Assembly (NCBI RefSeq): GCF_029531655.1
Contig: NZ_JANRMI010000001.1
Span: 930,001 to 994,000, forward strand
From: Bdellovibrio svalbardensis
GTDB lineage: Bacteria > Bdellovibrionota > Bdellovibrionia > Bdellovibrionales > Bdellovibrionaceae
Length of the DNA: 64,000 nt
Reading direction: 5' to 3'
The notes beneath the pieces are model-generated. The model was given only the letters and a program-made list of their open reading frames with translations. It searched no databases and was not told the origin of the DNA. Below, piece by piece: positions 45,853 to 54,342 of this stretch; the first letter of the stretch is position 1; each line of letters opens with the position of its first letter. Made by a program: the position numbers and the translations under genes.

Positions 45853-47331
45853 ATGAAGGCAAAGAGCGTTCTTAACACCTCAAAGCTGATTCTCGCGCTC
45901 GGAATTAGCATCGTGAGTACAAGTGCGTCCGCACTCACTTTGGCAGATTACTTGGAGCAAGTTAAAACGGATAACACGTCCTACAAGGGAAGTTCTCAGC
46001 AGTCCGAAGGGGCGGCTTTGAAATCCCGTGAAGCGGATTTATTTTTTACTCCAAAGATGTTCGCAGAAGCGCAAGTGGGGCATGATGGGAAGCCGTCTCA
46101 ACCAAAGACTTCTGATAAAATCAAATCAGAAAACTACTCTTTGGGTCTTACACAGCAGTTCAATTTCGGCTTGCAAAGTAAACTGTACTACAATCTTGCA
46201 AAGACCGAGTTTGTGAATGCCAACACGAATATGATTTCCATGCCGGAATATTGGGATGCAACTCCAAAACTTGAGTTGTCGATGCCTTTGTGGGGTGGTG
46301 GTTTCGGTCGTACGGCGCAGGCCAATCAAGAGATCACTCGTCAGCAAAATTACGCAGATCAATTCCAGAGTTCATATCAGTCCGTCGGATACTTGGCGCA
46401 GGCTGAAGCGGCTTACTGGAAGTTGTCGGCTTGGAATGATGTTGTCGTGATTCAAGAAAATGCGCTGAAAGCGGCACAAAATATCTTTGATTATGTTAGC
46501 AAAAAGAAAAAAATGAATCTCGGTGAAGAAGCCGATGTGGTGCAAGCCCGCGCCTTGGTTGAGGCTCGTACGCTCGAGTTGCAAGTTGCCAATAACGAGA
46601 AAAAGGAAGCTCTTCGCAACTTCAATAAATATTTGAATCGCAATGCTGACGTGACGGTGGACTCTCTGGAGCCGGTAAACTATGCGGCTTTGGAAAATCT
46701 CACGGTTCCGCAGGTGCGTCCTGGTGATCGCTACGACGTGAAAGCGACAGAGGCCCAGTTGGCAACAGCGAAGGCTAATTCGCAGTTGGTCAATGAACGT
46801 AACAAACCGACATTTGATGTTTATGGTACCTATGCTCTGAATGGCCGCGATAAAGAACAAAGTGATGCCATGAAAAAGGCCGGTTACACAGAAACAGACA
46901 CCAGCTTTGTCGGTGTTCGTTTCAATATGCCTTTGAACTTCACTGCGACTTCAGATGTTAAATCCGGTGCTTTGAAAACGGAAAAAGCTGCGGAGTACAA
47001 TCGCCAGTATGCCCTTTATGCCCAAGAGCAAGATTGGATCAATTTGACTAAATCTTTGGGCGATGCGCGCGATAATCTTCGTCTGTTGGGCCGAATAGAG
47101 ACTCTGCAAAAAACCAAATTGGATGTCGAAAGAAGTCGTCTTCGCCAAGGGCGCACAACGACTTATCAAGTGTTGTTGTTCGAACAGGATTACTCACAGG
47201 CCGCACTTTCTAAAGTGAAGTCCGCTGCCAATATTTTGGGATTGCAAACACAAATCAAACTTTACAATGCCGCTGGCTCTCAATCCGACGCTGGTCTACA
47301 CTCCGACGCTGTCGGAGTAGAAGGAAAATAG
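45853..47331 (+). CDS. TolC-family outer-membrane efflux channel
   Basis: A 492-residue protein with a signal peptide (cleavage near TSASA-LT) and the two helical repeats of TolC (long Ala/Gln/Glu-rich heptads near 170-260 and 390-470). It would form the outer-membrane duct of an RND pump whose inner-membrane part begins three bases downstream. A CTCCGAC-type palindrome lies inside the last codons, giving the odd tail SDAGLHSDAVGVEGK. A GGAGAC ribosome site precedes the ATG. No adaptor gene is nearby. Confidence 0.87.
   Translation: MKAKSVLNTSKLILALGISIVSTSASALTLADYLEQVKTDNTSYKGSSQQSEGAALKSREADLFFTPKMFAEAQVGHDGKPSQPKTSDKIKSENYSLGLTQQFNFGLQSKLYYNLAKTEFVNANTNMISMPEYWDATPKLELSMPLWGGGFGRTAQANQEITRQQNYADQFQSSYQSVGYLAQAEAAYWKLSAWNDVVVIQENALKAAQNIFDYVSKKKKMNLGEEADVVQARALVEARTLELQVANNEKKEALRNFNKYLNRNADVTVDSLEPVNYAALENLTVPQVRPGDRYDVKATEAQLATAKANSQLVNERNKPTFDVYGTYALNGRDKEQSDAMKKAGYTETDTSFVGVRFNMPLNFTATSDVKSGALKTEKAAEYNRQYALYAQEQDWINLTKSLGDARDNLRLLGRIETLQKTKLDVERSRLRQGRTTTYQVLLFEQDYSQAALSKVKSAANILGLQTQIKLYNAAGSQSDAGLHSDAVGVEGK
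47300..47318. repeat. CTCCGAC-type palindrome inside the OMF coding end
   Basis: ACTCCGAC-GCT-GTCGGAGT, a perfect 8-bp stem. It encodes part of the OMF C-terminus. The sequence shares the core with copies at 3.5 kb and 28.57-28.6 kb. Confidence 0.75.
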
Positions 47332-47333
47332 TC

Positions 47334-50300
47334 ATGAGCTTACCTAAGATATCCATTAGCAGACCTATTTTTATGACCTGCGTGACTATCGCCATTGTGG
47401 TAGTCGGCTGGGCTTCATTCAAATCCATGAGCGTTGACTTATACCCGGATGTTTCTATTCCGGTGGTCACCGTCCAAACAGTTTATAAAGGGGCAGGACC
47501 GGCAGAGATTGAAACTCTGGTCAGCCGTCCTATTGAAGACGAAGTTAGTACCATCTCTGGTATTAAACGTATGACTTCTAAAAATATGGAAGGCGTCTCG
47601 CAAGTGATCGTGGAGTTCATCAGCTCTGTGGATTCAAAATACGCGGAACAACAGGTTCGCGATAAAGTAAATATTGCGAAACCAAAACTTCCTGAGGAAG
47701 TTGAAGACTCCGTCATCAAAAAGTTTGACCCTTCGGACACACCGATTGTCATGCTTTCGTTAACAGGCGATCTTTCCGATGCCCAACTTTATGATATTGC
47801 CGACCAAGTTATTAAGCCGCGCCTGGAGCAGGTCAATAACGTCGGGGCGATTGAAATTCTGGGTGGTCGTAAAAGAGAAGTTCACGTCCTGCTAGATCGT
47901 GCAAAACTTAAAGCCCGTGAAATCTCGGTTTCTCAAGTTGCGGCCCAAGTGGGCGCGATGGGGGAGAACATTCCAAGCGGTAAGGTCAATCAGGGCGGTA
48001 AAGAGCTCGTATTCCGAGGCTTGGGAGAATTCCGCAACGTTCAGGAAATTTCCGACACTCTCGTGAATCTTTATGGCAATGAAGTGCCGACTCGTGTGGC
48101 GGATTTGGGTGTTGTGAAAGATACTGTCGAAGATGAAAAGTCTCGCGGTTTCGTGGATGGCAAGAAGTCCATCTTCCTGCAGGTTTATCGCCAATCCGGT
48201 TCAAACACCGTGAAGGTGGCTGATGACGTCTTCAAACAAATGGCTAAAATTGAGCCTGAACTGGCGAAGATGGAAGGTGCGCCGAAAATTCAACTAGTGA
48301 CAAATGCCTCTCAAAAAATCAGAGACAACGTGGCGGACGTGAATGAGACGATTATTATCGCGATCATTCTGACCGTGATTACGGTGTTCTTCTTCCTGGG
48401 AAGTGCACGCACCACTTTGATCACGGCGTTCTCATTGCCGGTTTCATTGGTGGGCGCTTTCATGTTGATGAAAATGGCGGGTTTCTCGATCAATATCGTT
48501 TCGATGCTGGCGTTGACTCTCGCAGTCGGTCTTCTGGTCGACGATGCCATCGTTGTCGTGGAGAATATCTATCGACGCATGGAATTGGGCGAAGACTCCA
48601 TCGTCGCCGCTGAAAGAGGAACCACAGAGATTCAGATGGCCGTGATGGCGATCTCTTTGGTGGTCATCGCGGTGTTCGTGCCGGTAGGTACGATGTCAGG
48701 GACTATCGGTCAGTTTTTGAAGCAGTTTGGTTTCACTGTCGTGTTCTCAATGATTATTTCTTGGTTCGTGGCGATGACTATCATCCCAATGTTGACGGCT
48801 TACTTCGGTGGGTCAGGTCATGGTGGGGCTGGTCACGATAAAGAGGCGCATAAGCCAGAGTCTTTCTACGACAAAACTTTGGGTCGTATGGTGAAGGGCT
48901 TTGACCGCTTCCAATCTTTGCTTGAAAGAATTTACGAGAAATTCCTTAGAGTCACTTTACGCCATCCTTTGATGACGATCGGTGCGACTCTTTTGGTGTT
49001 CTTCCTGAGTATCTATACCGTTACCAAAGTTCCGGGTACCTTCATTGCCGATGACGACAGCGGCGAGGTGACCGTTACATTGGAAATGGAACCGGGCACG
49101 AGCTTGGATGGTACAAACAAAGTGGGTGAAGAAGTCGATAAGATCATCCATAGCAATTCCAATGTTTTGTACACAACTATGACCATCGGAAGTATCTATG
49201 GTGAGGCAAATAAAGCCTCGTTCTATGTTCGTCTTAAAGACGGTAAAGAACGTGGTATGAAGACTGAGATTTTCAGAGATAAACTACGTCAGCAGTTGGC
49301 GGGCTTCTCTTATGCAAATCCAGTTGTTAAAAAATACGATGCTTCAGGTGGTATGGCGGCTCAACCATTCATGTTGAATATCATTTCTCCTGATCCTAAA
49401 GATCTTGAGAAATATGGTATGCAAGTTTATGAAGCCCTGAAAAAAGATCCACGCCTAAAAGACGTCGACTCAAACTTCCGTGCAGGTAAACCAGAGCTGC
49501 AAGTTCATGTTAAGCCAGGTGCTGCAAAAGCTTACGGGATTAACACAAAAACAATGGGTGGCGAACTTCGTGCACAAGTTGAAGGGATGACGCCGGCAAA
49601 ATTCCGTGAAAAAGGCCGTGAGTACGATGTTCGTGTTCGCTTGAATGAAGATCAACGTGACTTGAAGAAAACATTCAACCAGGTTTATGTGCCGAATATC
49701 AATCGTAAGCTGGTGCGTCTGTCTGATGTTGCCAATGGTGATTTGACATCGGGACCGGCATCTATCGAGCGTATGGACCGTGGTCGCTATATCCAGATCA
49801 CAGCCGGCTTGGCTCCAGGTGTGGGTTTGAGTGATGTGGTGAATGACGCCGTAAAAATGATGAGTCAGGGCGATACGAAATTCCCATCGGGAGTTCGTTA
49901 TAACTTCGGTGGTGATGCGGAGAATATGCAAGAACTTGCAGGTTCAACGATCTTGGCGTTGGGCTTTGCCGTGATGTTTATCTATCTGATCCTGGCGAGC
50001 TTGTATGAATCTTTCATCACGCCAATCACTATCATGGTGGCATTGCCACTGGCCCTTTGCGGTGCCTTCTTTGGCCTGTATTTGGCGAATGAAATTATGT
50101 CATTGTTTGCGGTGTTTGGATTCTTCATGCTGATCGGGGTTGCGGGTAAGAATGGTATCTTGCTGGTCGACTTTACAAATCAGATGATGGCGGAAGGAAA
50201 GAGCCGCGCAGATGCCTTGGTGCTTGCGGGTAAAACTCGTTTACGTCCGATCCTGATGACGTCATTTGCCTTGATCGCTGGTACATTGCCAGTGGCCATC

Positions 50301-50495
50301 GGTATGAATCCGGCTTCAAAATCCCGCACAGCCATGGGGGTTGCGATTATCGGTGGTATCCTTTCATCGACGATTCTGACTTTGATTGTCGTTCCGGCCG
50401 TGTTTACATACGTCGATCGCTTTAGAATTTGGGCTAATAAAATTGGCGGCAAAATCACGACAAACAAAAAAGACAGCACAGCAGAGCAAGCGTAA
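47334..50495 (+). CDS. RND-family (HAE-1-like) efflux transporter
   Basis: A 1053-residue inner-membrane pump of full AcrB length. It has the proton-relay pair D403-D404 in LLVDDAIVVVENIYRRME, the large periplasmic loops, and the repeat of hydrophobic segments near 340-560 and 870-1030 (GVAGKNGILLVDFTNQ). A His/Gly-rich insert (about 490-510, GGSGHGGAGHDKEAHK) sits in the cytoplasmic loop and could bind metal. It couples proton flow to export of drugs or other solutes with the TolC-like partner encoded just upstream; the periplasmic adaptor must come from elsewhere. A MarR regulator follows. Confidence 0.92.
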   Translation: MSLPKISISRPIFMTCVTIAIVVVGWASFKSMSVDLYPDVSIPVVTVQTVYKGAGPAEIETLVSRPIEDEVSTISGIKRMTSKNMEGVSQVIVEFISSVDSKYAEQQVRDKVNIAKPKLPEEVEDSVIKKFDPSDTPIVMLSLTGDLSDAQLYDIADQVIKPRLEQVNNVGAIEILGGRKREVHVLLDRAKLKAREISVSQVAAQVGAMGENIPSGKVNQGGKELVFRGLGEFRNVQEISDTLVNLYGNEVPTRVADLGVVKDTVEDEKSRGFVDGKKSIFLQVYRQSGSNTVKVADDVFKQMAKIEPELAKMEGAPKIQLVTNASQKIRDNVADVNETIIIAIILTVITVFFFLGSARTTLITAFSLPVSLVGAFMLMKMAGFSINIVSMLALTLAVGLLVDDAIVVVENIYRRMELGEDSIVAAERGTTEIQMAVMAISLVVIAVFVPVGTMSGTIGQFLKQFGFTVVFSMIISWFVAMTIIPMLTAYFGGSGHGGAGHDKEAHKPESFYDKTLGRMVKGFDRFQSLLERIYEKFLRVTLRHPLMTIGATLLVFFLSIYTVTKVPGTFIADDDSGEVTVTLEMEPGTSLDGTNKVGEEVDKIIHSNSNVLYTTMTIGSIYGEANKASFYVRLKDGKERGMKTEIFRDKLRQQLAGFSYANPVVKKYDASGGMAAQPFMLNIISPDPKDLEKYGMQVYEALKKDPRLKDVDSNFRAGKPELQVHVKPGAAKAYGINTKTMGGELRAQVEGMTPAKFREKGREYDVRVRLNEDQRDLKKTFNQVYVPNINRKLVRLSDVANGDLTSGPASIERMDRGRYIQITAGLAPGVGLSDVVNDAVKMMSQGDTKFPSGVRYNFGGDAENMQELAGSTILALGFAVMFIYLILASLYESFITPITIMVALPLALCGAFFGLYLANEIMSLFAVFGFFMLIGVAGKNGILLVDFTNQMMAEGKSRADALVLAGKTRLRPILMTSFALIAGTLPVAIGMNPASKSRTAMGVAIIGGILSSTILTLIVVPAVFTYVDRFRIWANKIGGKITTNKKDSTAEQA

Positions 50496-50543: not shown

Positions 50544-51068
50544 ATGGCAAAGTTATTTATTCAAGAGCTACCTAGCCGCGAAGAGATTCACAAGACAGCT
50601 TCCGAGCTGCACGCGGGTGTCGAAATGGATGCCTGGGTCTTGCATTCAAATTTGCTCTTTATGAAAGTCGCAACCGAACTGGAAATGAAGTTGGACAGCT
50701 TGCTGTCTGAATATCAACTTTCCAGTGGAAGGTTTACCTTGTTGTTTATTTTGCGCAACTCTCCAGAAGGCTTGATGCCATCTGTTCTGGCGCAAAAGGT
50801 GGGCGTGACCCAAGCGACGATATCGGGGCTGTTGAACAGTCTTGAAAAGGCGAACTTGATCGTGCGCGAGACCCATCAAAGGGACGGCCGTTCTTTTGTG
50901 ATAAAGCTCACAGAAAAGGGCGACAGTACGATCAAAGAGATTTTCCCGCGTTGGTATCCCTTTATCCAGTCTTTCTGGGGGCAGTTTGCTGACGATGAAA
51001 AATCGAATCTAGACCGTCTTTTGGAACGTATGATTCACACGACCACCCTGCAAAAGGCTGAGCAATAA
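50544..51068 (+). CDS. MarR-family transcriptional regulator
   Basis: A 174-residue protein with a winged-helix MarR core (about 60-130: LSSGRFTLLFILRNSPEGLMPSVLAQKVGVTQATISGLL, then NLIVRETHQRDGRSFVIKLTEKG). The LEKANLIVRE-DGR wing is characteristic. It lies 49 bases after the RND gene and is probably cotranscribed, giving the efflux unit two regulators (TetR upstream, MarR downstream). It should bind a small molecule, perhaps a pump substrate. Confidence 0.87.
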   Translation: MAKLFIQELPSREEIHKTASELHAGVEMDAWVLHSNLLFMKVATELEMKLDSLLSEYQLSSGRFTLLFILRNSPEGLMPSVLAQKVGVTQATISGLLNSLEKANLIVRETHQRDGRSFVIKLTEKGDSTIKEIFPRWYPFIQSFWGQFADDEKSNLDRLLERMIHTTTLQKAEQ

Positions 51069-51160: not shown

Positions 51161-51562
51161 ATGATTCCCAATCCATCTCAAGACAGCGATACAGCGAAAG
51201 CCATTAAGGCTTGTTTTTCTTGTTCCAGAACCTGTTTGGAAACTCTTCAGTATTGTCTTCATCAAAAAATTTCGAAGTTTACCGGTAAGCAGCTCGCGGT
51301 GATGCAGTTTTGTTCTGATTCCTGTCAGTTGGCCGCAAGCATGATGATGGCTGATCTTAATACTCAACACCAGAGCTGTGAATTGACGTTTGAATTGTGC
51401 ACGCGATGCGCAGACGAGTGCGAGCGATATCAAGACGATACGGTCTTGAGCCGTTGCGCCGAAGAATGCCGCCGTTGTGCAGAAATCTGTCGAGGCATGG
51501 CTGGAATGACGGTACAGGTTCGCAGCCCTAGCAAAGAGAGCGGAAAGTCAGCTAGGGCCTAG
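51161..51562 (+). CDS. Cysteine-rich four-helix copper-storage-like (Csp/DUF326) protein
   Basis: A 133-residue protein starting at ATG 51161, with GAGGAGG upstream (the frame is open six codons further to TTG 51143, which would bury the ribosome site). It carries 14 cysteines in helix-facing patterns (CFSCSRTC, QFCSDSC, ELCTRCADEC, SRCAEECRRCAEIC), as in copper-storage proteins (Csp) whose four-helix bundle binds many Cu(I) ions inside. There is no signal peptide, matching cytosolic Csp3 rather than secreted Csp1. It converges on the bufferin operon with 15 bases between the stop codons, placing copper storage next to copper-binding RiPP synthesis. Confidence 0.85.
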   Translation: MIPNPSQDSDTAKAIKACFSCSRTCLETLQYCLHQKISKFTGKQLAVMQFCSDSCQLAASMMMADLNTQHQSCELTFELCTRCADECERYQDDTVLSRCAEECRRCAEICRGMAGMTVQVRSPSKESGKSARA

Positions 51563-51577
51563 AAGGCTGTTTGGAAA

Positions 51578-52348
51578 CTACAGTGGTGTGATGTCGTCGA
51601 TAATGCCAGCTCTCATCATCATTTGAAAAAGCTGGGAAATCTTATCGGGTGACATCGAAGTGGGTTGCTCTGCAAGAGCTGCGGAGACGGATTTTCCATC
51701 CCGAAGCTCTTTCAGAATGCGAAACTCCTCATTGGCAATTTTCTTCACGTATATTTTTTTATCTTTCTTATAAAGAAGCAGATTTTCTGGAAGCTCCCAA
51801 TCAATATTTTCAAACTCATATTGAGGCTCTTTGCGCCGTGTCCAGATGTCATAAATTGCATAGGGGCTTTCGAAAAGTTCCATGGCTTCGACAAAACTGA
51901 CTTTAAAGTCATCTTCATTCATCAATTCCTGAATTCTTTCGACTGTAAGTGGATCAGGGCTGGGGGCGTGGAAGATATTTTTAAAGCGCCATTCAAAGCG
52001 TGCCAGATCAAAGACAAAAGGGATACCTTTGATGGCCGGGTGGAGACGGATGAAATCTGGAAAACTGGCGCCATAATCCGACAGGTTGTATGAGGTGGAG
52101 GGCTGAGTGTCGATATAGTTTTGGCAGACCTCCTGAAAAATGTGATCGCCCAAAACCCAATGAACCCCTTCAAAGGTTTCATCCAGGGCTTCGGTGAGAC
52201 GAGCAATGTAAGCTTTGTGGTAGACCTCAAAAGCCTCTTTGAGCTTCAGTTGTCCTCCGGGCTTGAAGGTTTTTAAAACTTCAGGATCCGCTTCCCCAGG
52301 AAAAAGGGTCTGCTTTTTAAACAAAGATTGGACTTCTTGCAGTTTCAT
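51578..52348 (-). CDS. bufC: BufC-like DUF2063 protein of a bufferin cluster
   Basis: A 256-residue protein from ATG 52348, with GGAGAAATC upstream; the open frame continues far upstream, but that part is antiparallel shadow of the DUF692 gene. It has a DUF2063-type N-terminal helical domain (QEVQSLFKKQTLFPGEAD, VYHKAYIARLTEALDETFEGVHWVLGD) and a C-terminal winged-helix-like region. In MNIO clusters the DUF2063 protein is the partner that presents the precursor peptide to the MNIO enzyme. It overlaps that gene by 32 bases. Cytoplasmic. No copper-binding motif of its own is visible. Confidence 0.85.
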   Translation of the reverse strand: MKLQEVQSLFKKQTLFPGEADPEVLKTFKPGGQLKLKEAFEVYHKAYIARLTEALDETFEGVHWVLGDHIFQEVCQNYIDTQPSTSYNLSDYGASFPDFIRLHPAIKGIPFVFDLARFEWRFKNIFHAPSPDPLTVERIQELMNEDDFKVSFVEAMELFESPYAIYDIWTRRKEPQYEFENIDWELPENLLLYKKDKKIYVKKIANEEFRILKELRDGKSVSAALAEQPTSMSPDKISQLFQMMMRAGIIDDITPL

Positions 52349-53171
52349 TTGATTTCTCCAAAATAGACGCGGCTTTGAGAATTTCAGCTTCAAGTTCGCG
52401 GAAGTCAGGGATGTTGTCATCGCGTTCAATACACACAGGAATATGGCGGATCTTTGGCGCAAGTGTTTTAAACAGACTCCAAACCGCATCCGGAATATCT
52501 TCGGCATGTGTATCAAACAGATGGGTGCCTTTATCTGTGGGGCCGGCCAAATGAATCTGTGCCACGCGCTCGAGTGGAATTGCATTCAGGTAAGTTCGGG
52601 GATCATAACCGTGATTGTAGGAGTTAACATAGACATTGTTAATATCCAGCAGAAGCCCACAGCCGGAGCGTTTAGATACTTCAGCGACAAACTCCCACTC
52701 AGTCATTTCATTGGCGCGGAAGCTTAAGTAGGTGGAAACGTTTTCCAGAACCAAAGGTGTTCGCAAATAGTTCTGAACAAAATCAATATTTTCAATCAGG
52801 CATTCCAGACTTTCTTGCGTATAAGGGAGGGGCAATAGGTCATGCATGTTTTGGTGGGAGGTGGCGGTCCAACAAATGTGATCAGAAACAATGAAAGGCT
52901 CCACTCGGTCTATGAGATCACGCAGCTTATTCAAATATTCGATGCGCACCCCGGAGGCGCTTCCAATGTTCATGCCCACGCCATGAAGAGCCAAGGGATA
53001 ATCCTTGCGAAGAGCGGTGAGCATTTCCAATGGACGCCCTCTGGAGTCCATATAGTTTTCTGAAACTGCTTCAAACCAAGCGACTTCAGTTGTCGGGCTT
53101 GTTTCTAGATATGGATAGTGGGGCGGGCGTAAACCCAGCCCCACTTTATGAGAATGAAATTGAGATCGCAT
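52317..53171 (-). CDS. bufB: BufB-like MNIO (DUF692) peptide-modifying oxidase
   Basis: A 284-residue TIM-barrel protein of the DUF692/MNIO family. It carries the conserved metal-ligand stretches: ALHGVGMN, VSDHICW, LVLENVSTYL, LLLDINNVYVN, AQIHLAGPTD, FDTHAEDIP and VCIERDDNIP. MNIO enzymes use a mixed-valent iron cluster to oxidise cysteines of a precursor peptide; in the bufferin pathway this gives thiooxazole-type heterocycles. Here the precursor (53172-53456) is directly upstream and the DUF2063 partner overlaps the end. The chemistry is family knowledge; only the motifs are seen. ATG 53171 abuts the precursor gene stop. Confidence 0.92.
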   Translation of the reverse strand: MRSQFHSHKVGLGLRPPHYPYLETSPTTEVAWFEAVSENYMDSRGRPLEMLTALRKDYPLALHGVGMNIGSASGVRIEYLNKLRDLIDRVEPFIVSDHICWTATSHQNMHDLLPLPYTQESLECLIENIDFVQNYLRTPLVLENVSTYLSFRANEMTEWEFVAEVSKRSGCGLLLDINNVYVNSYNHGYDPRTYLNAIPLERVAQIHLAGPTDKGTHLFDTHAEDIPDAVWSLFKTLAPKIRHIPVCIERDDNIPDFRELEAEILKAASILEKSNETARSPIFV

Positions 53172-53456
53172 TTAGGCACCTTTGTCTGCTTTGAATTTCC
53201 CGTGAGCCGCTTCGCATTTTTCTTTAGTCATTCGGAGCCAACCTTTGCCTTTGCAGGAGTTTTTTCCCGCGCAGCCATGGCCTTTTCCGCCACAGTCACC
53301 TTTGCCTTTGCAAGAATTCACTCCATGGCATTCGCCCTCGGCGGTGGCGGCATCCGGTTTCTGCGAGTCTGCTCCGTGTGCTTGTAAACTGACACTCAAG
53401 GCTCCCGCAGCCAGAAGACCGCTGATTGCTGCTTTTGTAAAAGTACCTTTTGTCAT
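53172..53456 (-). CDS. bufA: Bufferin-type RiPP precursor peptide (DUF2282, BufA-like)
   Basis: A 94-residue protein from ATG 53456. It begins with a signal peptide (MTKGTFTKAAISGLLAAGAL; cleavage near QAHGA-DS), unusual among RiPP precursors but typical of bufferins. The mature core has six cysteines (C43, C49, C55, C62, C68, C81) in the pattern ECHGVNSCKGKGDCGGKGHGC and NSCKGKGW, the CxGxNxCKGxG theme of DUF2282. After MNIO modification it would be exported to the periplasm and bind copper. It follows yceI by 25 bases and precedes bufB directly. Weak GGGAG ribosome site. Confidence 0.9.
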   Translation of the reverse strand: MTKGTFTKAAISGLLAAGALSVSLQAHGADSQKPDAATAEGECHGVNSCKGKGDCGGKGHGCAGKNSCKGKGWLRMTKEKCEAAHGKFKADKGA

Positions 53457-53481
53457 AGATGAAATACTCCCTATTTCCTGA

Positions 53482-54069
53482 CTACTTTGCTTTTGCCACC
53501 ATCGCTTCACCATCAATACTGATTTTCACTTCGTCACCAACGACAAAACCACCGGCTTCAATCGCTTTGTTCCAAACAAGTCCAAAATTTCTTCTGTCTA
53601 TTTTTGTCTCAGCTTCGAACGCGACACGACGATTGCCCCATGGATCCGTAACAGCCCCTTTGTATTCCACTTTAAGGGTCACAGGTTTTGTGACTCCGTG
53701 AATGGTTAAAAGACCTTCCACTTTTTCAGGCTTGGCGTGGTCGTAAATTGTTTTAGTACTTTTAAATGTCAGTTTTGGAAATTTTGTGACGTCCAGGAAA
53801 TTAGGTCCGCGTAAATCTTTGTCGCGATCCTTCTCGTTGGTATTGATGGAGTCCGCTGCGATTTCGATAGAAATATTATCGAGCTTTTGAGTTTTCTCGT
53901 CGAAGTCGAAGGTGCCCTCAAACTTGTCAAAGCGACCTTTTACTTTAGAGACAACCAAATGAGGCACCGTGAACTGTATTCCCGTATGGGAGATATCCAA
54001 AGAGAATTTTTCTGCGAAGGCAGTGCTCGTGGCCAATGAAACTAGTAATGCCGGAAGAAGAAGGCGCAT
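53482..54069 (-). CDS. YceI-family periplasmic lipid-binding protein
   Basis: A 195-residue protein with a signal peptide (MRLLLPALLVSLATSTAFA-EK) and a YceI lipocalin-like barrel (FSLDISHTGIQFTVPHLVVSKVKGRFDKFEGTFDFD, and RRNFGLVWNKAIEAGGFVVGDEV). YceI proteins bind isoprenoid-type lipids in the periplasm. It is the first gene of the unit with bufA, bufB and bufC; AAGGA precedes its ATG. YceI proteins are occasionally linked to stress or metal loci, but a place in bufferin function is only suggested by the gene order. Confidence 0.88.
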   Translation of the reverse strand: MRLLLPALLVSLATSTAFAEKFSLDISHTGIQFTVPHLVVSKVKGRFDKFEGTFDFDEKTQKLDNISIEIAADSINTNEKDRDKDLRGPNFLDVTKFPKLTFKSTKTIYDHAKPEKVEGLLTIHGVTKPVTLKVEYKGAVTDPWGNRRVAFEAETKIDRRNFGLVWNKAIEAGGFVVGDEVKISIDGEAMVAKAK

Positions 54070-54342
54070 GGAAGTCCTTTCGATGGAGGGAGTAAAATGT
54101 TGCTATTCACTTTTTTTGAAGTGCCCTGTTTTTACAAATTAAGATTAGGTAAGACGCTGAGTTGGAGGGTGGCTTTGTTTAAAGACACTGATGTCTCAAG
54201 TTTGAGCGCTTGGAATGAGTGTCGATATTATTCTAGGCAGTGCCTACTTCTTATTCGCTCATAGACAATAGAAGGGCTGCACGGGTGGCCCTAAACCTGC
54301 ATTACCTTATAGAAGGATCACTAACGGCTTTCTGGGGGAACT

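Follow-up and report, generated by a model that had tools for sequence, protein, structure and literature searches.

Gene content and organization of the locus

The window, that is, the whole stretch of 64,000 nucleotides of Bdellovibrio svalbardensis DNA that was analysed, contains a cluster of four minus-strand genes that is met head-on by a gene for a small cysteine-rich protein, which in turn follows a regulator and an efflux pump on the plus strand. The features, in order of position, are as follows.

45853-47331, plus strand: TolC-like gene, 5' of the RND pump gene
47334-50495, plus strand: RND pump, scoring best as a multidrug permease and not as a heavy-metal permease
50544..51068, plus strand: marR-family regulator (PF12802, E=5.1e-11), immediately 5' of csp on the same strand
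51161..51562, plus strand: csp, 133 aa with 14 cysteines, profile match to solved Csp-family chains
51578..52348, minus strand: bufC, DUF2063 partner of the MNIO enzyme (PF09836, E=3.3e-17)
52317..53171, minus strand: bufB, MNIO bufferin maturase (NF050167, 339.6 bits, cut-off 310; PF05114, E=1.4e-101)
53172..53456, minus strand: bufA, 94 aa with six cysteines (NF050166, 66.2 bits, cut-off 60)
53482..54069, minus strand: yceI, predicted exported lipocalin-like protein with no cysteines (PF04264, E=3.6e-46; assigned also by synteny and tree)
54131..54143, minus strand: upstream element CTTAATTTGTAAA, 13 bases, at roughly 62 bases 5' of the start of yceI

The layout given in an earlier note on this DNA is confirmed: the four genes of the minus strand, and csp converging on them, lie at these coordinates, with 15 bases between the stop codons of csp and bufC. 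The order of transcription on the minus strand is yceI-bufA-bufB-bufC, of which the last three genes follow the strictly conserved bufA-bufB-bufC order of bufferin clusters (PMC12452194). The genes are closely spaced, with a gap of 25 bases between yceI and bufA, none between bufA and bufB, and an overlap of 32 bases between bufB and bufC; therefore, the four genes very likely form a single transcription unit. The combination of yceI-bufABC with a convergent csp is far more than would be seen by chance. The locus was compared across 144 genomes, namely the window genome, 23 other Bdellovibrio genomes and 120 from elsewhere in the class.

The precursor and its maturation enzymes

Bufferins are a recently described and widespread form of bacterial copper buffering by modified peptides. 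The precursor gene of the window had been described as encoding a DUF2282 protein with a signal peptide and six cysteines. The six cysteines are present and the N-terminus, judged by eye, resembles a signal peptide, but the family label has to be replaced. The protein has no Pfam matches, which excludes the DUF2282 (PF10048, Buf1) assignment, and it scores above the curated cut-off of the BufA2 model NF050166, which places it in the Buf2/Buf_6Cys family; in fact, no DUF2282 match over the cut-off was found anywhere among the 24 genomes of the genus.

The identification of the adjacent gene product as a DUF692/MNIO enzyme with its metal-ligand motifs is borne out by a score above the NF050167 cut-off and by the conservation of the active site. 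In TglH, the iron ligands are His71, His107, Glu151, Asp184, His216 and Glu258, and site 3 consists of Asp184, Asn187, Asp229 and His231 (PMC10880893). All nine ligands of this type are intact in the window BufB (H63, H98, E143, D176, N179, H207, D220, H222 and E249), as placed by alignment to the structures 3BWW and 8HCI and, for the first two histidines, by motif. The related enzyme HvfB is inactive when any of its site-3 residues N175, D242 and H244 is replaced (PMC13419390). The DUF2063 partner is likewise found where the earlier note had it, directly after bufB, and is recognized by its Pfam family.

The oxazolin system HvfABC of Haemophilus shares with the window the pairing of an MNIO enzyme with a DUF2063-RRE partner (PMC13419390) but has a precursor of the EGKCG type, and both window proteins fall under the corresponding cut-offs: BufB scores 236 bits against the HvfB model (cut-off 360) and BufC is a weak match to the HvfC equivalog (32 of 142 bits). 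With the Buf2 (Buf_6/12Cys, BufA2) clusters the operon has in common a six-cysteine precursor with a signal peptide, the MNIO enzyme, the DUF2063 partner and the bufABC order; it departs from them in being led by a yceI gene, and in that most of the genus keeps the enzymes without the precursor. The gene for DoxX, a usual member of bufferin clusters, is absent from the window buf cluster. Its absence, the distance of BufC from the HvfC cut-off and the missing bufA in most relatives count against the bufferin interpretation of the operon, which is based on BufA2 and BufB scores above curated cut-offs, the nine intact ligands, the bufABC order and the distinct clade of the associated YceI.

YceI as a member of the buf operon

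In 18 of the 19 buf loci of Bdellovibrio, a yceI gene lies directly upstream of bufB or bufA, and the site of the locus within the genome is constant, with a subtilase/nuo block on one side and an L,D-transpeptidase/ABC block on the other. Five genera of the class outside Bdellovibrio (G033, G035, G044, G070 and G119) also show the complete order yceI-bufA-bufB-bufC, and further genera have bufABC without YceI. The YceI domain of the window protein matches the E. coli YceI structure 1Y0G (E=1.2e-32) and, like that protein and BcnA of Burkholderia, is predicted to be an exported lipocalin-like protein. Unlike these, it belongs to a separate clade tied to bufABC and is not accompanied by cytochrome b561. 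The buf-linked YceI sequences form one clade with 94% bootstrap support, which includes a single YceI from a genome that has no BufB (G042), and several residues that are invariant among them are rare in other YceI proteins.

The 13-base element CTTAATTTGTAAA stands 5' of yceI in 14 of the Bdellovibrio buf loci and has no other copy in those 14 genomes. It is degraded in four species (G011, G012, G021 and G022). Two buf-less genomes, G004 and G013, each contain a single copy, located inside an unrelated coding gene. We infer that the element is a putative operon-specific control site. Its use as a marker of a wider regulon was considered and rejected, because each genome that carries it has a single copy and those in G004 and G013 fall within unrelated coding genes.

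The synteny in Bdellovibrio and in five other genera, the shared clade and the upstream element uphold the earlier placement of YceI in the buf unit and support the view that, as judged by comparative sequence analysis, YceI is a stable fourth member of the buf operon, both in Bdellovibrio and in some related genera. YceI is not mentioned in a published survey of MNIO clusters, which found other conserved genes only at extremely low frequency (PMC12452194), and no paper in which DUF692 and YceI are both named came up in a full-text search. The locus thus adds an exported YceI, absent from that survey, as a stable member of bufferin operons.

The csp gene and its neighbourhood

Taken alone, the Csp sequence is under the Pfam DUF326 cut-off (18.6 versus 20.4 bits). 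A profile of 21 sequences, built from this Csp and its relatives, matches solved structures of the family, with E=2.7e-29 for 3lmf and E=2.5e-23 for RkCSP3; therefore, the earlier description of the protein as Csp-like holds, as does its count of 14 cysteines. The window Csp has no evident export signal, which it shares with the cytosolic members (Csp3 group, RkCSP3, 3lmf) of this cysteine-rich four-helix-bundle family. It differs from them in that it belongs to a Bdellovibrio "QDSD" subfamily, present in 23 of the 24 genomes of the genus and characterized by an N-terminal QDSD motif and 11–16 cysteines, with Thr, Ser or Ala at several of these positions in relatives; copper binding by this subfamily is a prediction. 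The window genome encodes a second Csp (L030/L109, G000:C2:587013-587318), of 128 aa with 12 cysteines, which is more canonical and has no QDSD motif, and similar paralogues are found in G005, G018 and G020.

The earlier note had named the co-occurrence of csp with buf genes in relatives as a test of the pairing. Adjacency of the two is seen in only seven of the 23 Csp-bearing Bdellovibrio species (six full loci and a contig-end fragment in G010), all of which fall into a single clade in the NuoB/CD/E and subtilase trees. Given this single clade, we rejected the possibility of two independent gains of the pairing, which had been hinted at by two classes of BufB scores. In the remaining 16 species, csp is found near pheT-ihfA (five species) or at a third site (eleven species), and four species with Csp (G008, G013, G015 and G016) have no BufB at all. 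Moreover, csp still faces bufC in the group in which bufA is gone and the site-3 ligands of BufB are lost; therefore, the adjacency alone is weak evidence of joint function.

These observations bear on the proposal that Csp, the bufferin and YceI act as one copper-defence module, with Csp taking charge of cytosolic copper and the bufferin of periplasmic copper. In one clade, seven species have kept the two genes in convergent adjacency through large sequence divergence, the literature ties both families to copper, and a genome from a different genus (G029) has csp and yceI in direct convergence. We nevertheless regard such a module as unlikely, considering that 16 of 23 species have Csp at one of two other conserved sites, that it occurs in the four species devoid of BufB, and that it stays beside buf after the loss of bufA and of site-3 ligands. 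Furthermore, by eye, csp and yceI share no upstream element, convergent genes cannot share a promoter, and a Csp with no evident export signal would be in a different compartment from a periplasmic bufferin. Of the earlier suggestion that Csp, YceI and the bufferin work together, the part concerning YceI is retained, as membership of the operon, on account of synteny and clade, whereas the part concerning Csp is not sustained by an adjacency seen in seven of 23 species of one clade. The functional link between Csp and buf is accordingly weak; a real one is nevertheless conceivable, given the convergence in G029 and the adjacency that seven species retain. The G029 locus (L175:5350-6678) shows a zero gap between the converging csp and yceI genes and contains no MNIO genes.

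Alternatively, csp could belong with the upstream TolC-RND-MarR genes, as part of an efflux unit for drug or stress resistance, and touch the buf operon incidentally. The gene is on the same strand as the regulator and begins 92 bases past the MarR stop, the pump scores best as a multidrug permease, and the order TolC-RND-(NDH-like)-MarR-Csp, common to five related genomes, is kept wherever the clade has a full locus. This explanation is nonetheless doubtful, since Csp occurs without the block in the 16 other species and some species have a long upstream region of csp's own, with a terminator-like sequence. It is possible that csp is co-transcribed with marR. The NDH-like oxidoreductase found between the RND and MarR genes in related genomes is missing from the window, and no adaptor gene is seen between or beside the TolC-like and RND permease genes (45853-50495).

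In the G002/G006/G016/G023 group, several core cysteines are missing from the QDSD Csp: 11–13 remain, and Thr, Val or Ala take the place of the others (alignment; L081-L084), which suggests a lower or changed metal capacity.

Retention of BufB, BufC and YceI without the precursor

That most Bdellovibrio species retain BufBC and YceI without a precursor is, in our view, a more interesting fact than the pairing with csp. BufB is encoded in 19 of the 24 Bdellovibrio genomes, and a recognizable bufA accompanies it in only two, the window genome and G005. The other genomes of the genus, several of which are single contigs, have no BufA2 or DUF2282 match over the cut-off. An alternative precursor within the bufA-less operons was considered and rejected, as there is no room for one: in the 16 bufA-less genomes that keep yceI, the distance between yceI and bufB is -4 to 35 bases. 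A scan for unlinked precursors with a CKGKG-coding pattern gave matches in every genome, controls included, and had no discriminating power.

Because bufA is found at this very position in other genera, loss of the gene is the simplest reading of this distribution. A tree was built from the subtilase, NuoB, NuoCD and NuoE, with seven further genera as its root and low support at several deep nodes; under vertical inheritance it would imply at least three losses (in G017, in the G010–G022 group and in the large remaining clade); one loss followed by a later regain is also possible.

The enzymes that remain fall into two groups. All nine ligands are kept in 11 of the 17 BufB proteins from bufA-less species, and N179 and H222 are lost in the other six (G010, G011, G012, G021, G022 and G017), with further ligands lost in G010 and G017. 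Pairwise dN/dS values for BufB, obtained with a simple counting method, are 0.01–0.05 in the ligand-intact group and 0.06–0.13 in the ligand-lost group; the corresponding values in the ligand-intact bufA-less group are 0.02–0.13 for BufC and 0.02–0.09 for YceI. Thus, BufB and BufC are under purifying selection in the absence of bufA in 17 species, and so is YceI. Since the operon persists without bufA in most relatives, its conserved function may not be the production of a bufferin.

Accordingly, we weighed the possibility that the main conserved job of BufBC-YceI in Bdellovibrio is to act on another client, either YceI or an unlinked protein, and that the window bufA is a relic of the ancestral state that few species retain. 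The 17 of 19 BufB genomes with no recognizable BufA2 or DUF2282, the position of YceI in the precursor's place directly before bufB, and the combination of intact ligands in 11 bufA-less BufB proteins with low dN/dS for all three proteins are compatible with such a role. On the other side, YceI has no cysteines in most species whereas most MNIO clients are modified at cysteines, and a divergent, unlinked precursor is possible, as the precursors in the class are very variable and the whole genomes were searched by family or pattern only. On balance, we hold this alternative to be a tentative one, to be kept in mind but not favoured. A more specific form of it, which appears rather unlikely to us, is that BufBC became independent of the bufferin precursor and that selection maintains the pair for a different client, perhaps YceI, which is an envelope protein and not a RiPP; the MNIO proteins that are still conserved despite the loss of site-3 residues, found in a single sub-clade and in a basal species apart from it, would then suggest a non-catalytic role. 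The presence of intact maturation enzymes without a recognizable precursor, in a genus with genetic tools, makes the search for other MNIO clients directly testable.

For the window itself, we consider it likely that the operon makes a periplasmic copper-buffering bufferin of the Buf2 (BufA2) type, and that csp is a separate unit whose place beside buf arose once. BufA would be made with a Sec-type signal peptide and presented by BufC to BufB in the cytosol, where BufB, as an iron enzyme, would oxidize core cysteines of BufA to thiooxazoles, by analogy with characterized bufferins. The modified peptide would then be exported and bind up excess copper, as expected from what is known of the family (PMC12452194). 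YceI may serve as an exported accessory or client in the envelope. Csp is probably a cytosolic four-helix bundle, predicted to store copper and expressed from its own transcription unit, perhaps together with the MarR gene; its placement next to buf would have arisen once in one Bdellovibrio clade and would not necessarily imply joint function. The earlier rationale that the pairing makes sense for predatory bacteria, which meet copper released from prey or host phagocytes, is not supported, as most of the sampled Bdellovibrio species have no bufferin precursor.

The precursors themselves vary across the class. The loci L176, L177, L099 and L103 include some BufA2 precursors from related genera with a lipobox-like cysteine in the signal region and, in G044 and G119, two tandem bufA genes. 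Other genera of the class have, directly before bufB, very different small exported ORFs rich in Lys, Gly and Cys (L100, L102, L104, L106, L107, L181 and L184), which are not scored as BufA2 but may be precursors of other types.
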